A stretch of DNA of 57,406 nucleotides from Microcystis aeruginosa Ma_SC_T_19800800_S464 (GTDB taxonomy: Bacteria; Cyanobacteriota; Cyanobacteriia; Cyanobacteriales; Microcystaceae), in NCBI GenBank assembly GCA_007095785.1, contig SFBL01000021.1:1-57406 (forward strand), given 5' to 3'. Within the stretch, counting starts at the first letter, position 1. Each line of letters begins with the position of its first letter. Positions 7,041 through 43,482 of the stretch are shown here, piece after piece. The notes beneath the pieces are model-generated. The model was not told where the DNA came from and made no database searches. It saw only the letters and a list, made by a program, of their open reading frames with translations. Made by a program: the position numbers and the translations under genes.

Positions 7041-9266
7041 ATGTCTAACCAAGAATCGATTTTTCCGTTACCTCAAAAACCAGTGTATTCCTCCCTATTC
7101 AAGTGGATTTTAGCAATAATATCAGTTATTTTAATTATGTTAGCAGTGCTCGGCGGGCTAATGATGGTCAGTTTATCATTATCTTGGCCAGAACACAATA
7201 TTTATCGATTACTCCTTGGTTTAGCAGAAGATTTTTTTAACCCCTTTGCTTGGATCAAAGTTCCCACAGTTACTAATAGCTATCAATTATTATTACCCAC
7301 GGTTATCCTGCTAATTTTTACGCAGTTAATCATTTTCTTGTCTCCGCGTCCGCAAGTTTGGTCAAGATTAGTCATTATTTCTATCACTCTAGCTATCACC
7401 CTGCGCTATCTAGTCTGGAGGATTCTGGAAACCTTAAATCTTTCTACTCCTCTCAATGGCTTTTTTAGTTTACTGCTTTTAGGCATTGAGATGATGGTTT
7501 TAAGTGGTAGCATAATTCAGTTAGTTTTAGTCTTAACCACGAAAGATAGACGCAAAGAAGCTGATTTTTATAGCCAAGCAGTGATCAATAAACAGTATTT
7601 GCCCACGGTAGATATCCTCATTCCCACCTATAATGAGCCAGCCTTCATCTTAACCAGAACTATTATCGGTTGTCAAGCCCTGAATTATCCCCATAAAAAT
7701 GTTTATATTCTCGATGATACCCAGAGATCAGAAATTCATCAATTGGCAGAAAAATTAAATTGTCATTATCTGACTCGTGAGGATAGAAAAAATGCTAAAG
7801 CAGGTAATTTAAACCATGCTCTCAGACAAACTCAAGGGGAATTAGTGGCAGTTTTTGATGCAGATTTTATCCCTTGTCGGAATTTTCTAGAAAGAACTGT
7901 TGGCTGGTTTCAAAATCCCAAAATTGCCTTAGTGCAAACTCCCCAAAGCTTTTATAATGCTGATCCTATCGCCCATAACTTAGGTTTAGAAAATATCGTT
8001 ACTCCCGACGAAGAATTATTTTATCGTCATATCCAACCAGCTAAAGATGGGGTGGGTAGTCCTGTCTGTGCTGGCACTTCTTTTATTGTCAGAAGAAAAG
8101 CATTAGAGGAAGTGGGCTGCTTTAATATAGAATCTATTAGTGAAGATTATTTCACTGGGATTGCTATATCTGCCAAAGGTTATGAAGTTATTTACTTAAA
8201 TGAAAAACTCAGTGCTGGTTTATCTGCCGAAAGTTTATCAGCTTATTTACGGCAAAGATTGCGCTGGGCAAGAGGAACGTTACAGGCCTTTTTTATCAAA
8301 GCTAATCCCCTAAAAATTGCGGGATTAACTCTCCCTCAAAGATTGGCACACTTAGAAGGACTTTTATCTTGGTTTTCTCCCTTAGCTCGTTTATTTTCTC
8401 TGCTTATTCCTCTCCTTTATACCTTTGGTTATATAGTACCTTTGAACATTACCATCAATGAGACAATATATATATTTTTACCCTACATGATGCTGCAGTT
8501 AGCCACTTATCACTGGTTAAATTCTCGCTCGCGCTCGATTGTTTTTTCTGAGGTACTATCGATGATTATTTGTGTACCAACATCCCTAACAGTTCTCCAT
8601 GTTCTTTGGAAACCATTTGACAAAGGATTTCAGGTGACACCGAAGGGAATTGCTCGCCAAAATTATCAATATAATTGGCACTTATCCTACCCATTGCTGT
8701 TTTTTCTGACCATTACCTTAATTAGTATTTTCTTTAATTTACACCATCACAATTATCAAGCAAGTCCCCTAAATTTTGGCTTGATTTTGGCTATATATAA
8801 CGGGGTTATTATCATGACTGCTTTAGTGGCTTTATTGGAAGCTCCCCTCACCCTAGAAACTCAATATCAAGTGCTGAAATCTCCTGTTAATTTGATAACA
8901 GAATCGGATATAATTATACAGGGCAATCTCAAAAAACTTTCGGAAATAGGAGCAGAAATTCACCTGAGGGAACCCATCTACTCAGAAAAATTACTCCTAG
9001 ATATTTTAGGCGAAGATTTGCGCTTATCTGCTCATCTAGTCAATCTAGAAAAACGAGGAAAAATCTGGAAAGCAACCCTTAAATTCCAGCCACTTATCCT
9101 ATCAGAGCAGAGAAAATTAATTACTTTTTTATTCTGTCGTCCCCAGTGCTGGCAACCGAAAAATACGGCAGGAGAATTAAAATCCCTTTGGTTGCTAATT
9201 ATCAGCTTTTTTCGGGGGATAGGCTTAATTCGGCGAGAATTTTTGAATCGAAAAACAGCCCTTTAG
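7041..9266 (+). CDS. Cellulose synthase-like family 2 glycosyltransferase (BcsA-like)
   Basis: Membrane processive beta-glycosyltransferase of the BcsA/CesA type. The 741 residues start with several membrane helices (to about 170). A GT-A catalytic domain follows with D-D in LDDTQRSEIH, the DxD in FDADFIP, the general base region ISEDYFTG (SED for the usual TED) and the product-binding QRLRW motif. More membrane helices follow at about 430-595. The tail after residue 600 has the position and length of a PilZ domain, but I see no RxxxR and only a weak remnant of DxSxxG (KLSEIG). AAGGGG four bases before the ATG is a good ribosome site. No bcsB or other cellulose gene is adjacent. Product identity (cellulose or another beta-glucan) is inference. 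Confidence 0.85.
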   Translation: MSNQESIFPLPQKPVYSSLFKWILAIISVILIMLAVLGGLMMVSLSLSWPEHNIYRLLLGLAEDFFNPFAWIKVPTVTNSYQLLLPTVILLIFTQLIIFLSPRPQVWSRLVIISITLAITLRYLVWRILETLNLSTPLNGFFSLLLLGIEMMVLSGSIIQLVLVLTTKDRRKEADFYSQAVINKQYLPTVDILIPTYNEPAFILTRTIIGCQALNYPHKNVYILDDTQRSEIHQLAEKLNCHYLTREDRKNAKAGNLNHALRQTQGELVAVFDADFIPCRNFLERTVGWFQNPKIALVQTPQSFYNADPIAHNLGLENIVTPDEELFYRHIQPAKDGVGSPVCAGTSFIVRRKALEEVGCFNIESISEDYFTGIAISAKGYEVIYLNEKLSAGLSAESLSAYLRQRLRWARGTLQAFFIKANPLKIAGLTLPQRLAHLEGLLSWFSPLARLFSLLIPLLYTFGYIVPLNITINETIYIFLPYMMLQLATYHWLNSRSRSIVFSEVLSMIICVPTSLTVLHVLWKPFDKGFQVTPKGIARQNYQYNWHLSYPLLFFLTITLISIFFNLHHHNYQASPLNFGLILAIYNGVIIMTALVALLEAPLTLETQYQVLKSPVNLITESDIIIQGNLKKLSEIGAEIHLREPIYSEKLLLDILGEDLRLSAHLVNLEKRGKIWKATLKFQPLILSEQRKLITFLFCRPQCWQPKNTAGELKSLWLLIISFFRGIGLIRREFLNRKTAL

Positions 9267-37101: not shown

Positions 37102-39369
37102 CTAGGACCAAGGATCGAGGGCGGAAGGAAAAGAAGTATTGACTTCCGAGGAGACGATCAGTTCTTGATTGGGGTCTAGTTCTCGTTTTAACTGTTCCCA
37201 ATCGCCGGGGTCGGTTAACTCCTCATAAACAGGGGGAGCGAAAACGATCGTTTCCTTGTCCGATGGCCTGTTTCGGGAAGGAAGGACTGGATCAGTCAAA
37301 TCAAGCAAATCCGGGTCAAGAATAGTCGGATTTGCGCTCTCAGGGGAAGCTGTGGGCGAATTTAGGCTAATTTCCCGCTTTAGTGACTGTAATTCACGGT
37401 TGAGAGCCTGTAATAACTGCTCGATCGCCTCGATTCTCCCGAAAACATCCGGGGGAATCTCAGGATTATTGGCAGTAGAGAGGGAGGGTAAAGTTAATTT
37501 ATCAGCCATGACGCGCTCGATTTCCTCTAGGGTAGTATAACCTTGACAGACTAATTCTAAACCGTAGGCGAGGAGAGACTTGAATCCTGCCTGTGTTGCC
37601 GCTTTTTTGAGCATATCGGCGGGTTTATTGTTAGCGATGAAAGTTTTGAGGTGAGGGGTAATCGTGATCACTTCAAAGACCCCAATCTGGGACTGATAAC
37701 CGATGCCGTGACAATGACGGCATAATCTGCCTTTTTCCCGCGCTTGGATGATTTCTTCGGCAGTGAGAGAATTAGCTTTATAAAAGCTGTATTGAGCAGC
37801 TTGGACGGTAGAAAGACCAAATTTAGCTAATTCTTCCCTTTTTGGTTGATGTTTCAGCCGACAAACCGGACAAACCCGTCGCACCAGTCTTTGATTGATC
37901 ACTCCAATTAGGGTATCAGCCACTAGGGCCGGCTCCGCTAATTGATTGAGGCGAGCGATCGCGGTAAAGGCATCATTGAGGGGTAAACTAGAAATAACTA
38001 AATGTCCAGTCAAAGCCGCTTCTAGGGCATGGGTAAGGGTGGAAGAATCCACCAGGCGATCGATGCCGATGATATCCAGGTCTTGATTCCGGAAAGAGGG
38101 CAAAATCGAGGCATAATCTTGGCCTTGACCATCAGCGATTTCCACTTGGGTAATACCATTAAGGCTGCGTTCGATCGAGGTTTCCAGGGTAGCGATATTA
38201 ACCCCACCCCGGTTTCGATGGGCTAGTAGAGAATAGAAACTGGTGGAACAGCCGCCTCTGGCCGGTGCGGTGAGCAGAATCAATCCCCCAGGACGATCGA
38301 TCATGGTGCGTGCCAGTTTACAGGTTTCTTGGCTAGTAATCAATTCATCGAGAGGCCAAAGTGGGGATCGAGAATCAAAAACCCGCAGCAGAATTTTTTC
38401 CCCCTGTTGACTGGGTAGGGTGTGGAGACGAAAATCTATTTTGCGACCGGAAAAAGTTATGGTCATTTTTCCCTGTTGGGGTCGCGATTTCTCGCTGACA
38501 TCGAGGTTAGCCAGAATTTTTAACCGTGAGATAATCGCCGGGGTCATTTTCCGAGAAATCGGTTCCCAGGCAGAACGCAGGAGACCATCTCGGCGAAAAC
38601 GGACATTTAATTGATTTTCTTGGGGTTCTAGGTGAATTTCCGTCGCTTTACTTTCGATGGCTTGAACCAGGATATTATTAACGAGACTGACGATCATCTT
38701 TTGATTGGCCTGTTGAATCAGACCGAGATCTTCGTCGGCTAATTTGCAGTTGAGATGGGGGAGAGATTGGCCATCTTCAAAAAGGCCGGTTATGTCAACT
38801 ATGGTCTCTAGCTCTTGTTCTTGGGGAAGAAAATGGCCAGATAAGGCTTCTTCTTGGCGATAACGATAGATTTCGACCAATTTCTGGTAATCTGCTCGAT
38901 CGATGACACGACGTTCAAACTGCAATTCTTGATCCCGGAGGATACGACGTAAATCATCGAGAATTTGCTGATTAGCGGGATCGACCATGGCTAGGTGAAG
39001 GACATTGGGATCGGATTCTTGTTTTTGTAGGGGCAGGATCTGATAACGACGGCAAATTTCAAAGGGAAGGACTGTGCGAAACAGATTTTCGATTTCTGTC
39101 CAGTCGAGCGTCTCACTTTCAGGGTCAAGATATTCTAACCCATACTTGGCTTTTAATTTTGATAGTTGTTCGAGTCGGTAGTATGCCAGTGCCTCTTTGG
39201 GTAAAGGACGGCCGGTGATCAGGGGTAAAATTGCCAGTAGAGACAGATGACTTTTCTGCTTCTCAATCATTGCCTTTTGTAGTTGCGGGATAGTGACATA
39301 ACCCGATTGCACCAACTTTTGAGCAAAGGAAGGCAGCTTGGTCGGAAGTTTCTCGTTTGCTGATGACAT
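37102..39369 (-). CDS. PilB/GspE-family protein with degenerate ATPase motifs
   Basis: A 755-residue paralogue of the type IV pilus/type II secretion ATPase. An MshEN-like N domain (about 12-110) leads to the ATPase core (215-480) and an intact four-cysteine zinc site (C500, C503 and the later CRHC). The nucleotide site is degraded. Walker A reads APARGGCST (368-376), with no lysine. The Asp box reads RPQQGK where RxPQDGR is expected. The Walker B region DIIGIDRLVD lacks the glutamate, and the His box reads SSLPLND. The frame is fully open and the protein full length, so it is probably a retained non-hydrolysing partner or regulator of the pilus motor. A long acidic tail follows residue 640. 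Confidence 0.8.
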   Translation of the reverse strand: MSSANEKLPTKLPSFAQKLVQSGYVTIPQLQKAMIEKQKSHLSLLAILPLITGRPLPKEALAYYRLEQLSKLKAKYGLEYLDPESETLDWTEIENLFRTVLPFEICRRYQILPLQKQESDPNVLHLAMVDPANQQILDDLRRILRDQELQFERRVIDRADYQKLVEIYRYRQEEALSGHFLPQEQELETIVDITGLFEDGQSLPHLNCKLADEDLGLIQQANQKMIVSLVNNILVQAIESKATEIHLEPQENQLNVRFRRDGLLRSAWEPISRKMTPAIISRLKILANLDVSEKSRPQQGKMTITFSGRKIDFRLHTLPSQQGEKILLRVFDSRSPLWPLDELITSQETCKLARTMIDRPGGLILLTAPARGGCSTSFYSLLAHRNRGGVNIATLETSIERSLNGITQVEIADGQGQDYASILPSFRNQDLDIIGIDRLVDSSTLTHALEAALTGHLVISSLPLNDAFTAIARLNQLAEPALVADTLIGVINQRLVRRVCPVCRLKHQPKREELAKFGLSTVQAAQYSFYKANSLTAEEIIQAREKGRLCRHCHGIGYQSQIGVFEVITITPHLKTFIANNKPADMLKKAATQAGFKSLLAYGLELVCQGYTTLEEIERVMADKLTLPSLSTANNPEIPPDVFGRIEAIEQLLQALNRELQSLKREISLNSPTASPESANPTILDPDLLDLTDPVLPSRNRPSDKETIVFAPPVYEELTDPGDWEQLKRELDPNQELIVSSEVNTSFPSALDPWS

Positions 39370-39674
39370 GGAATAGAGCCAGTAAAGACTGTACAGCCCA
39401 CTACATTCCTTATTATCCCCATTTTCTCACCGTAGCTAACAGGCAAAAGAAAATTTATCCCACTTTCCGCACTTCTTAACATTCAATTGATAATTTTTAC
39501 TAATATATTGCTGAAACCCCATTGCCCGTGGGGACTATAGCTACAATGATTGATTTTTATCAAGGTGAAGAATTGTAATTTTTTTTCTCAGAAAAAATCA
39601 ATTATTGAAAATGTTCTCAATCGTAGTTTCTACAATGAAGGTTTTTCGTCAAAACATCTTGGGGAATGTAAAAA

Positions 39675-39791
39675 GGTTCTTCGGTTTGTCTTATGCAATG
39701 GACGGGGGTTATAAGGGATGGAAACCTTATCTAGAAAGGCATTTGGCGATTTTTGTCAATTGTTTTTTATCTAGAGCGAACTAATCAATTA
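39675..39791 (+). repeat. 117-bp dispersed repeat, copy 1
   Basis: Runs from GGTTCTTCGGTTTGTCTTAT to GAGCGAACTAATCAATTA and has the same length as the copy at 57290-57406. The inner hairpin (ATAAGG with CCTTAT) keeps pairing in both copies although loop bases differ. Confidence 0.75.
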
Positions 39792-39904
39792 AGTCTCTTG
39801 CCAGATAAGGATTTAGTCAATTTATGCTCCCCTATCGAACCATACCAAGTAACGAAGAACCTGTAAAAATATATAAAAGTATATGAAGATGTGCGTAATG
39901 TCGG

Positions 39905-40020
39905 TTGTAACACCAATCTATTTATACCATTTTTCTGTATTCGTGTCCCTCACCCCCGCCCCTCTGCCATTACTTTAGAAAAATGGTATTAGTATTTGGG
40001 AGAAAAAAATTACGCGGACA
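39905..40020 (+). repeat. Left copy of the direct repeat flanking the restriction-modification genes, interrupted
   Basis: TTGTAACACCAAT (39905-39917) and TTAGTATTTGGGAGAAAAAA onward to CGGACA (to 40020) match 42419-42466. The two parts are separated here by a 66-bp element. The start codon of the flanking small gene is ACG in this copy. Confidence 0.7.
39924..39989. repeat. 66-bp element with 13-bp inverted repeats
   Basis: ATACCATTTTTCT (39924-39936) and AGAAAAATGGTAT (39977-39989) are exact reverse complements. The element is absent from the matching position of the right direct repeat, which shows that it is an insertion. Confidence 0.7.
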
Positions 40021-40129
40021 GAGGAGATGGGGAAGTGGACAGAAAGATTCGAGCATTTATACTAAAATCTAAGATAGCTGGTATAATATCTTCTCAGGGA
40101 TCAAAACTAAAGCTTATAATAGAGAAAAT

Positions 40130-41170
40130 ATGTGGACTTTTATTGATTTATTTGCCGGAATAGGAGGATTTAGAATCGCTCTAGAGAATCTCGGTTGTCA
40201 ATGCGTTTTTTCCTCGGAAATCGATCCTCACTCCCAAAAGGTTTACTTGGCTAACTATGGTCATTTACCCGATAATCAAGACATCAGAAAATTAGAGGCA
40301 AAAACTGTCCCCGATCATGATATACTCTGCGGCGGTTTTCCCTGTCAAGCGTTTAGTATCGCCGGCAGAAAACACGGTTTTGAAGATGCACGCGGAACCT
40401 TATTTTTTGAAGTTGCCCGGATCCTACACGAAAAGAAACCGAAAGCTTTTATCTTAGAAAATGTCCAGGGTTTAGTTCACCATGATCGAGGTAAAACTTT
40501 AAAAACTATTTTAGATATACTAGAAAAGGATTTGCATTATTTTGTCCCTAGTCCCCAGATTTTAAATGCCAGATATTTTGGGGTTCCTCAAAACCGTCCC
40601 CGAATTTTTATCGTCGGTTTTCGAGAAGATTTAAATATTTACCATTTTTCCTATCCTCAACCAACCCATCAAGAAACTTGTCTCAAAGATATCCTAGAAG
40701 AAAAGGAAGTCAGCGTTAAATATTATCTCTCTAATCAGTATTTAGAAACTTTGTTTAAACACAGGGCCAGACACGAAAATAAAGGTAATGGGTTCGGTTA
40801 TGAGATTATTTCTCCCGATGGTATCGCTAATGCTATTGTGGTGGGAGGTATGGGAAAAGAAAGAAATTTAGTTATCGATCAAAGACTGACTAATTTTACT
40901 CCGGTTACTCGCATTAAGGGAGAGGTAAATAAATTATTCGTCCGCAGAATGACCCCCAGAGAATGGGCAAGATTACAGGGATTTCCCGATAGTTTTCAGA
41001 TTGTTGTTAGCGATGTCCAAGCTTATAAACAGTTCGGCAATTCTGTGGCTATTCCCGTGGTAAAAGCGGTGGCAAAAGAGGTGATTAAAACTTTAGATTT
41101 ATCGAAGAAATCAAATGTAAACGTTAAATTTACAGACTGGCAAGGAAAACAATTAGAGTTATTCACATAA
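40130..41170 (+). CDS. DNA cytosine-5 methyltransferase, M.HpaII type (CCGG)
   Basis: C5-methyltransferase with all core motifs: DLFAGIGGF (6-14, SAM), GGFPCQAFS with the catalytic Cys72, ENVQGL, QNRPRIF, and FGNSVAIPV near the C-terminus. The target-recognition part (GNGFGYEI, DGIANAIVVGGMG, RNLVIDQRLTNFTP) is very close to what I know of M.HpaII, which methylates the inner C of CCGG; specificity is therefore inferred with good confidence. It is 346 residues long and lacks the N-terminal extension of M.HpaII. The endonuclease gene follows after 13 bp. Confidence 0.92.
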   Translation: MWTFIDLFAGIGGFRIALENLGCQCVFSSEIDPHSQKVYLANYGHLPDNQDIRKLEAKTVPDHDILCGGFPCQAFSIAGRKHGFEDARGTLFFEVARILHEKKPKAFILENVQGLVHHDRGKTLKTILDILEKDLHYFVPSPQILNARYFGVPQNRPRIFIVGFREDLNIYHFSYPQPTHQETCLKDILEEKEVSVKYYLSNQYLETLFKHRARHENKGNGFGYEIISPDGIANAIVVGGMGKERNLVIDQRLTNFTPVTRIKGEVNKLFVRRMTPREWARLQGFPDSFQIVVSDVQAYKQFGNSVAIPVVKAVAKEVIKTLDLSKKSNVNVKFTDWQGKQLELFT

Positions 41171-41183
41171 TTGAAAAAACACC

Positions 41184-42266
41184 ATGAATTATCGCAGCTA
41201 TAATAGGGGAGAATGGACTGAAGTTTATGTATTATTTTACTTGTTGGGGCAAAAAAAACTTTATAAAGGTGATGCGAGTTTTCAAAAACTCTCAGATTTC
41301 TTTTATATAAGCAGAGTTTTTCACTATGAAAACCTAGAAAAAGTAGAATTTCAATTAGAAAATAATCTCTCTGAAATCGTCATTAAAAGAAGTGGTTGCA
41401 TCAATCAAAGAATTTCTGTTCAGGATTTCATTGATAAAGCAAATGACATATTTGAAGCTATTATAAATAGTCAAGGAAGGAGTTTTTCTATTCCAGCCAT
41501 CGAAGATTTTCTCAAAAGTATCAATTGTCAAACTATTAAACAAGATTCAAGAAATGTTAAAGATATAGAAATTGGAATTATTGATACAAAAAGAGATAGG
41601 CATGACAATTTCAGTTTCTCAATCAAATCTAAATTAGGTCAATCACCAACAATTTTTAATGCTGGTAAAAAAACGGTTTTTATTTATAGGATTGAAAGCA
41701 ATAATAATCTTGATATTCCAAAGTTGAAAGAGTTGGAATCAGCAACAAAAATTTTAAGAACAATTAGGGGTCAGTGTCAAATAGTATTTGACGAGTTAAA
41801 AACCAGAGAGTTTACTAACACTTTTTATAGAAATCTCATCCTGATAGATGATAGTATGCCAATTATTGTGGCGAACTTACTGCTAAATGCTTATAGTGGT
41901 GAAAATAATAAAAGTATAATAGAATTGCACAAAAAAATGACAATGGATAATCCCTGTGGCTATGAACTGCAAAATGTCGGAGAAATTTATGAGAGAAAGA
42001 TAAAAAACTTTTTAACTGATATAACATTAGGATTAAAAGCTTCGGAAGATTGGAAAAAAGATAATACACCTAATGGATTTTTAGTGGTCACAAGGAATGG
42101 TGAAGTTCTTTCCTATTATTTGTTAGATAGGAAAACTTTTGAAGATTGTCTTTTTACTCAAACTAAGCTGGATGTACCTAGTAGAACAAGACATGATTAT
42201 GGAACTGTATATCAGGAAGAAGGAAATTATTATATTAAGTTATGCCTTCAGGTAAGATTCAGATAG
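41184..42266 (+). CDS. HpaII-family type II restriction endonuclease
   Basis: A 360-residue protein beginning with NRGEWTEVYVLFYLL, close to the NKGEWSEIYTFL start of R.HpaII as I remember it, and of the same length. It would cut unmethylated CCGG. The pairing with an M.HpaII-like methylase 13 bp upstream supports this. DIEIGIIDTKRDRHDNFSFSIKSKLG holds a plausible D-x(n)-S-x-K nuclease core. The gene is clearly more AT-rich in its codon use than its neighbours, a sign of transfer. The frame is intact. Confidence 0.85.
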   Translation: MNYRSYNRGEWTEVYVLFYLLGQKKLYKGDASFQKLSDFFYISRVFHYENLEKVEFQLENNLSEIVIKRSGCINQRISVQDFIDKANDIFEAIINSQGRSFSIPAIEDFLKSINCQTIKQDSRNVKDIEIGIIDTKRDRHDNFSFSIKSKLGQSPTIFNAGKKTVFIYRIESNNNLDIPKLKELESATKILRTIRGQCQIVFDELKTREFTNTFYRNLILIDDSMPIIVANLLLNAYSGENNKSIIELHKKMTMDNPCGYELQNVGEIYERKIKNFLTDITLGLKASEDWKKDNTPNGFLVVTRNGEVLSYYLLDRKTFEDCLFTQTKLDVPSRTRHDYGTVYQEEGNYYIKLCLQVRFR

Positions 42267-42418
42267 CAATCACGTTTCAGAGTTAAGCAATGTTTTTTCT
42301 AGCAGCAAAATAGGATTCTGACTAGACGCGGTTTTTCCTTAGAGGTAACAATAAAAGAGCAGCAGAGGTGATGGTTTCGCCGGTTGTGCTTGTTAAAGGT
42401 ATCTTGCTTATACTACAC

Positions 42419-42466
42419 TTGTAACACCAATAGGTTTAGTATTCGGGAGAAAAAATTATGCGGACA
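42419..42466 (+). repeat. Right copy of the direct repeat, uninterrupted
   Basis: TTGTAACACCAAT-AGGT-TTAGTATTCGGGAGAAAAAA and onward to CGGACA. It contains the ribosome site and start codon of the small gene at 42458. Confidence 0.7.
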
Positions 42467-42799
42467 ATCACACGCACCACCACTACCGATATGGAAGTCA
42501 CCAGCATTCGTCTGGAAAGAGTCCTCAAAGACAAGCTGAAAGAGATTTCCGGCAATCAAGGTTATCAAGCACTCATTCGCGATGTCCTATGGAATTTTGT
42601 TCAGCAAAAATCAGGGGATTATCGACCTCAGTTTTGTGCTGGTGATATAAGGGCAGTATTTAACGCTACAGCTAGAAAAAATGAGATTTGCGCTCTCACA
42701 GGCAAGTTAATCCCCGCTAATGAAACAATGTTGTTAGGTTTGACTATCTATGGCGATTTAGTTCCGTTGAGTATGGATAGTTATGCCAATTTAAAATAA
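42458..42799 (+). CDS. Small protein with a ribbon-helix-helix-like N-terminus
   Basis: A 113-residue protein. Residues 12-50 (MEVTSIRLERVLKDKLKEIS then QALIRDVLWNF) fit a CopG/Arc ribbon-helix-helix DNA-binding fold. The C-terminal half (ICALTGKLIPANETMLLGLT) has a single cysteine and is unfamiliar. GGGAG nine bases upstream is a good ribosome site. The same 5' region, with the start changed to ACG, lies at 39989-40020, so the gene's front end was duplicated when the restriction-modification pair arrived. Confidence 0.65.
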   Translation: MRTITRTTTTDMEVTSIRLERVLKDKLKEISGNQGYQALIRDVLWNFVQQKSGDYRPQFCAGDIRAVFNATARKNEICALTGKLIPANETMLLGLTIYGDLVPLSMDSYANLK

Positions 42800-42877: not shown

Positions 42878-43016
42878 ATTATGAATTATGAATTATGAAT
42901 TGAGCGGTGGGGAGTTTTTTGCTGTGAACACTGAACTGATAACTGATAACTGATTACTGATTACTGATAACTGATTACTGATTACTGATTACTGATTACT
43001 GATGACTGATGACTGA
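42878..43016 (+). repeat. Heptad repeats running into the trmL start
   Basis: ATGAATT units (about 42880-42901) and then a long run of ACTGATA, ACTGATT and ACTGATG units from 42930. The trmL ATGACTGAACC is the last unit of the array. Confidence 0.85.
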
Positions 43017-43482
43017 ACCGATTTTACGAGTGGTTTTAATCAATCCGCAAATTCCGCCAAATACAGGGAATATTGCCCGTACTTGCGCCGCAACGAGGAC
43101 AGAATTGCATTTAGTTGGTCCTTTGGGGTTTGAAATTAGCGATCGCTATCTGAAGCGCGCCGGCTTAGATTATTGGCCCTATGTAAAACTTATGTACCAC
43201 TTGACAATAAATGAATTCTGTGCTTATCAACAAAAGAGCGGCGGAAGGGCGATCGGGTTTACTGTGCGCGGCAGCAGCAGTTATGTGGAATACAGCTATC
43301 AAAGCGGAGATTGGCTACTTTTTGGCAGTGAAACCGACGGTATTCCGGCAGATTTATTAAATCAATGTGATGACACGGTTTATATTCCCATGGCGGAACC
43401 GGGGGTGAGAAGTTTAAATCTTTCCGTTAGTGTGGCAATCGGATTATTTGAGGCCAGACGACAACTGGGATTTATTCGTTAG
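43009..43482 (+). CDS. trmL: tRNA (cytidine34-2'-O)-methyltransferase TrmL
   Basis: SPOUT-class enzyme that methylates the wobble ribose of some leucine tRNAs. The 157-residue protein has IPPNTGNIARTCAATRTELHLVGPLGF, LFGSETDGIP and the knot motif VRSLNLSVSVAI. Its start codon and first codons (ATGACTGAACCG) come from the heptad repeat, and there is no Shine-Dalgarno. A start at another codon is not available without losing conserved residues. Confidence 0.92.
   Translation: MTEPILRVVLINPQIPPNTGNIARTCAATRTELHLVGPLGFEISDRYLKRAGLDYWPYVKLMYHLTINEFCAYQQKSGGRAIGFTVRGSSSYVEYSYQSGDWLLFGSETDGIPADLLNQCDDTVYIPMAEPGVRSLNLSVSVAIGLFEARRQLGFIR

Follow-up and report, generated by a model that had tools for sequence, protein, structure and literature searches.

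A fixed methylase, a patchy HpaII-type endonuclease and a decayed leader repeat at one locus in Microcystis

Three kinds of described restriction-modification (R-M) systems come close to the locus presented here. The Type II systems of the HpaII family share its layout, in which a C5-methylase gene (PF00145) is followed on the same strand by an endonuclease gene (PF09561, RE_HpaII); in our comparison 30 of 75 methylase relatives have an RE_HpaII-like ORF fused to them or immediately on their 3' side, where the adjacency limit is 300 nt, the methylase position is taken as 8001-8960 at 39 of the 75 loci, and L136 (one base beyond the limit) and L180 (upstream) are scored as not adjacent. As far as the accessible part of PMC3031569 goes, R-M genes can be inserted with a long target duplication (Nobusato et al. 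2000, cited there), and they then lie, as here, between direct repeats of the start of a flanking gene. In Halobacteria, according to the available portion of PMC6471742, orphan methylases stand beside patchy R-M genes, and the likeness consists in a conserved methylase with restriction made patchy by horizontal transfer and loss. Microcystis itself is reported to carry unusually many R-M systems (PMC8262939, in its accessible part). The words HpaII and CCGG are absent from the main text of that paper, the locus is not treated in the accessible part of PMC4390886 (on Microcystis, HpaII and methylation), and no description of it was found in the largely open-access literature searched.

The window, that is the whole stretch of 57,406 nucleotides of Microcystis aeruginosa that was analysed, has the following features at and around this locus.

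37102-39369, minus strand: T2SSE/MshEN protein gene, pilB-like, the left neighbour of the methylase locus
39905-40020, plus strand: left, decayed copy of the small-gene leader, with arms 39905-39917 and 39987-40020 and ACG at the start codon
39918-39986, strand not applicable: 69-bp hairpin insert splitting the left copy, with inverted ends ATACCATTTTTCT / AGAAAAATGGTAT
40021-40129, plus strand: spacer, consisting of low-complexity filler and then the methylase upstream region (from about 40043 common to the ndhD-type genomes)
40130-41170, plus strand: C5-cytosine DNA methylase of 346 aa (PF00145), of the type found with HpaII-type endonucleases
41104-42284, plus strand: exchange cassette of about 1.18 kb, made up of the last 67 or so nt of the methylase, the endonuclease and the first 17 nt beyond
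41184-42266, plus strand: RE_HpaII endonuclease of 360 aa (PF09561; PADLOC REase_II), AT-rich
42353-42466, plus strand: right, intact leader copy of 114 bp, its extent being that shared with the left copies of G001 and G003
42458-42799, plus strand: small conserved gene of 113 aa, present in 38 of 50 genomes of the family, genus included
43009-43482, plus strand: TrmL-like tRNA methyltransferase, 5 bits below NCBI's cut-off for TrmL

The earlier note on this DNA had placed an HpaII-like pair at 40130-42266, and the profile matches confirm it: the product of 40130-41170 matches DNA_methylase PF00145 with E 2.4e-99, and that of 41184-42266 matches RE_HpaII PF09561 over positions 1-359 of 359 with E 2.2e-84. 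The small gene product is weakly like ribbon-helix-helix regulators (below the Pfam cut-off; phrog_582, Arc-like, E 0.003). The genus sample comprises 12 species-level Microcystis genomes, one per species, with a completeness of 93% or more and including several drafts (G008 at 93%), with G000 being the genome of the window. The TrmL-like gene forms the right flank in 11 of the 12 and was not seen in G003, where the contigs break inside the small gene; the latter is there split over two contig ends (L024:9726-9935 and L025), and the second contig leads to an alpha/beta-hydrolase gene, not trmL. As for the left neighbour, the T2SSE/MshEN gene has a full-length match in three of the twelve genomes (G000, G002, G005), pieces in four, and none or a weak one in five.

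The methylase is intact or open beside the small gene in every one of the 12 genomes, and the other 11 proteins are 92-98% identical to that of the window. Over 78 pairs of 13 copies (first 966 nt), the mean dN is 0.011 and the mean dS 0.142, with a dN/dS of 0.077, and judging from these values the gene is evidently under strong purifying selection. The earlier note had predicted a clean empty site in sister strains, and this prediction fails, as a small gene without an adjacent methylase occurs in 0 of the 12 genus genomes. In fact nine of the 12, some of them drafts, keep the methylase without any RE_HpaII match (E 0.001), thus as a solitary methylase. In G011 there is a second methylase beside the ndhD-like gene, followed by an ORF termed ORF-X and an apparent insertion sequence; the two methylases of this genome are 99.1% identical over 966 nt. 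Outside the genus, no methylase is found near the small gene at any of the nine outgroup loci (4 to 5 kb searched on each side), which share no left flank with the Microcystis locus, and close methylases occur in two family genomes, on another contig than the small gene. One of these two is fused to an endonuclease in a single 706-aa ORF, in a genome belonging to the sister genus, and the other has no adjacent endonuclease. In other cyanobacteria HpaII-type systems can thus be single ORFs: the methylase and RE_HpaII domains stand in the same protein in all six long ORFs picked for testing (L102:5111-7228; L088, L089, L090, L092, L094), and 10 of 12 non-genus matches sit in frames of at least 571 aa.

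The endonuclease is distributed otherwise. By six-frame search it is present in three of the 12 genus genomes, namely G000, G010 and G011, and the G011 gene is disrupted twice, first by a frameshift in an A-tract around codon 22-25 and then by an internal TAA; compared with G000 over codons 31-360, this broken gene has a dN of 0.024 and a dS of 0.046, and from these values it looks to be under relaxed selection. The gene is AT-rich, as the earlier note had it, with a GC content of 29.6% against 44.0% for the window, and about 0.2% of 1127 equal-length sliding windows are as low. The endonuclease slot holds the unrelated ORF-X in G003, G006 and G009, and neither of the two in six genomes. Both the endonuclease and the left leader copy are found in G000 and G011, and neither in seven genomes; a repeat that came with the pair should track it, and it does not, as G010 has the endonuclease without the left copy and G001 and G003 show the reverse. 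By this distribution, the left copy and the endonuclease are independent of each other. A viral or plasmid carrier was considered and set aside, since no close relative of the endonuclease was found in viral contigs and no ORF-X in plasmids.

The limits of the variable piece can be read from the alleles. When methylase alleles that have the endonuclease are compared in steps of 70 nt with those that lack it, identity is 91-98% up to about nt 974 and 61% thereafter. Between G000 and G010 the cassette (41104-42266 counted) has 4 differences in 1163 positions, against 20 in 966 in the 5' part of the methylase (Fisher p 2e-4) and 46 in 989 in the leader, small gene and trmL taken together (p 5e-12). 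As judged from these counts, the endonuclease and the 3' end of the methylase have evidently been exchanged by homologous recombination between the two genomes, the right edge of the cassette being read from the alignments. Between G000 and G011 there are 30 differences in 1082 positions of the endonuclease and 17 in 966 of the methylase, with no excess similarity, so a recent exchange is seen for one pair only.

The direct repeat reported to flank the pair is real, with an intact leader at 42419-42466 and a decayed copy at 39905-40020: the best local alignment between the flanks scores 49 as it stands and 61 without the insert, whereas 500 first-order Markov shuffles of the flanks reach 32 at most. 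The reading of its two ends holds too, the right copy being the intact leader and start of the small gene and the left copy having ACG at the start. The proposed length of 48 bp does not hold, since the left copies of sister genomes cover about 85 to 114 bp of the leader. A repeat search reports the direct repeat of the window as three pieces, and the 69-bp insert with inverted ends that splits its left copy has, among the other Microcystis loci compared, a sole and partial relative of 32 bp. The 114-bp leader is found once per genome in all 12, and a second, left copy exists in G001, G003 and G011. A dispersed origin of the repeat is rejected, as all 15 matches in the 12 genomes lie at this locus, a count that excludes the left copy of the window itself because it is split.

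The left copies have several features in common. All four share the same end base and then have G where the right copies have A, and those of G001 and G003 both read TTTC-TGGG where the right copies read TTTCGCCGG; the shared end base and this shared derived change speak for a single event behind the left copies. The GGTCA difference of the left copies is also found in the right copy of G011, and some conversion between left and right copies is possible. The left copy of G003 reaches to a point about 40 nt beyond the methylase stop, as seen in alleles without the endonuclease, and includes a 27-nt spacer element, ATAATTAATTTTCGAGAGTTCAAAAAT, without mismatch. Similar copies of this element are scattered over the genomes; among the matches listed, nearly all of them carry T for C, as in TTTTTGAG, and the exact form is found at this locus only. 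The left copies of G001 and G003 have members of one dispersed element family, oppositely oriented, at their left border, and G008, which has no left copy, yet retains filler resembling that after the left copy of G001. Outgroup genera have relatives of the last 76 bp or so of the right copy ahead of their small gene, and a leader relative lies just upstream of it at five of the nine outgroup loci (L106, L107, L108, L109, L112; E < 0.01). The duplicated stretch itself seems to predate the species sampled.

To the left of the methylase the gene order varies. Seven genomes lack the left copy and have an ndhD-like gene (Proton_antipo_M; named ndhD by eye) immediately before the methylase; one block lies after the pilB-like gene, which is intact or carries a deletion, in G002, G005, G010 and G011; in G001 this block instead follows the ndhD-like gene, and a pilB-like remnant precedes the left copy. 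These shuffled junctions, together with the second methylase of G011, mark the region left of the methylase as a recurrent breakpoint. Between genomes the ndhD-like and pilB-like junctions are swapped with gene orientation unchanged (window 39370-40020; L115, L118-L121), and a single inversion between them is rejected because the orientation is the same in G001 and G002. The spacer at 39453-39904 of the window is built of dispersed elements, and 39370-39904 used as a query has 18 to 51 matches per genus genome.

ORF-X, of 235-258 aa, lies between the methylase and the leader in the three genomes named above and also at the second methylase of G011 (L019:6244-6960, L022:6032-6808, L024:8689-9396, L103:6925-7692). 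It is fast-changing, with similar dN and dS values in the three closer copies, it has matches in four of 386 cyanobacterial genomes drawn, and its structure model, with a mean pLDDT of 37.3, is useless. We do not take it for a second restriction partner, as it has no Pfam family above the cut-off and no PADLOC or PHROGs match, and as two other relatives, in G073 by a pyruvate-kinase-like gene and a broken second copy in G011 by a sulfite-reductase-like gene (both neighbours named by eye), lack a methylase within the 3.6-3.7 kb covered. Of the six genomes with neither ORF-X nor endonuclease, five have a stretch of 61-62 nt that is 75-82% like the ORF-X start and the sixth, G007, has a 29-nt piece of that start; all six therefore look like ORF-X deletions.

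From its Pfam family, the target of the methylase is probably CCGG. These sites have not been purged, in agreement with the earlier note: the window has 205 against 252 expected, a ratio of 0.81, and the ratio is 0.72 in other Microcystis stretches and 0.48 in outgroup stretches. The Microcystis phage Mic1 carries a methylase 58% identical to that of the window over 325 aa, and its CCGG ratio is 0.63, with 0.04-0.06 for GGCC, GATC and CGCG (4 sites against 96 expected, 11 against 236 and 2 against 36, respectively; L202, L203). The authors of the Mic1 transcriptome suggest, in the accessible part of PMC11237433, that its two methylases protect against host restriction. Mic1 also has a gene annotated as DNA adenine methylase, yet GATC is nearly absent from it; and in the first 50 kb of two other phages, LMM01 and MaMV-DC, the CCGG ratio is 0.61 and 0.62, CCGG being there the second most depleted palindrome after GATC. 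Both observations speak against a simple reading.

Taken as a whole, the best explanation, and in our judgement a rather probable one, is that of a fixed methylase, an endonuclease cassette exchanged between species and a left repeat that is an old scar. It is drawn from what the compared genomes display, namely the fixation of the methylase, the patchiness of the endonuclease, the recombination edges and the independence from the repeat. The C5-methylase would have reached fixation before the small gene on the stem lineage of Microcystis, and selection would have kept it since; the left repeat would be a decayed second leader copy, probably made once before the sampled species parted, and the present distribution of the endonuclease would not stem from that event. 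Instead the cassette of about 1.18 kb would be carried between species by homologous recombination, the homology arms being the shared methylase gene on the left and the leader region on the right. The methylase would mark the inner C of CCGG and the endonuclease, where the cassette is present, would cut unmarked CCGG in incoming DNA; this specificity, the activity of the enzymes and the reason for the exchange we infer. Since all recipients would already be marked, the gain of the endonuclease need not be lethal, and its loss need not cause post-segregational killing.

The left copy would be the scar of an older event, for which two origins are nearly even: an old methylase insertion with a long target duplication, or a tandem duplication. 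Both concern the left copy alone and are compatible with the exchange of the cassette. The former, to which we give somewhat less than an even chance, takes the left copy as the target duplication, much longer than 48 bp, of an insertion of the methylase or of the methylase-endonuclease pair in the Microcystis stem, the seven ndhD-type genomes having lost it through a rearrangement that brought the ndhD-like gene next to the methylase. A single event then accounts for both the methylase at the small gene and the left copy; it is consistent with the outgroups, where the methylase is missing at all nine small genes and the leader is still recognisable at five, and with the occurrence of the left copy in G011 and in G001/G003, on opposite sides of the ndhD tree (support 0.85). 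However, no empty site exists in the genus, the second methylase of G011 by its ndhD-like gene requires an additional step, and, given the extent of the G003 left copy, the end of the target would have to coincide almost exactly with that of the methylase's own 3' flank.

A slightly lower chance is left to the tandem origin, by which the methylase, its downstream spacer and the leader were duplicated together, the left copy being the end of the former unit, and rearrangements at dispersed repeats and insertion sequences later removed the left methylase or separated it from the rest. The two methylases persisting in G011, one beside the ndhD-like gene, are in its favour, as are the locus-specific spacer variant within the G003 left copy (exact form among the matches listed) and the dispersed element family bounding the G001 and G003 left copies in opposite orientation. 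Against it, none of the left copies has a visible methylase remnant on its left; the ndhD-like genes of G000 (whose contig ends 349 bp after that gene), G001 and G003 have no methylase directly downstream, so that further losses are needed; and the near identity of the two G011 methylases makes their duplication look recent or homogenised. The segment L103:6793-6908, which follows a methylase and also lies left of the G001 left copy, is not accepted as proof that a methylase once stood there, being a dispersed element for which every one of the 12 genomes has at least 40 matches.

The endonuclease could be ancestral with repeated loss; with a fused form in the sister genus, either gain or loss may account for where it is now found. 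That the R-M pair itself was inserted in this genome with a target duplication of about 48 bp, as the earlier note proposed from the direct repeats on both sides and the AT-rich endonuclease, is now highly improbable, as the methylase is in all 12 genomes, the left copy and the endonuclease each occur without the other, and the duplicated stretch exceeds 48 bp. In place of this mobility story stands a better supported one, with modification that is fixed and restriction that is exchanged by itself.

R-M systems are usually thought to face problems of establishment and addiction. A tentative and rather unlikely reading of the locus is that the genus-wide methylase acts as a standing licence by which these problems are avoided, that the endonuclease is a shared defence cassette moving from species to species by ordinary homologous recombination via the methylase gene, and that phages answer in kind, the Mic1 methylase being such an answer, with CCGG far less depleted in that phage than GGCC, GATC and CGCG. 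If strains without the endonuclease prove to be CCGG-marked, one could ask at this locus, under natural conditions, whether restriction is gained and lost at a lower cost where the methylase is fixed.

Compared with the described systems, the Microcystis locus thus departs from each in its own manner. Unlike other R-M systems of the HpaII family, it has a methylase fixed in the genus together with a patchy endonuclease. Unlike the insertions with long target duplication (PMC3031569, as far as its accessible part describes them), it has no empty site, its repeat is decoupled from the endonuclease, and its duplicated stretch is longer and apparently older. Moreover, in contrast to the orphan methylases of Halobacteria as presented in the available portion of PMC6471742, it shows both states at one and the same locus, where the exchanged piece can be delimited.
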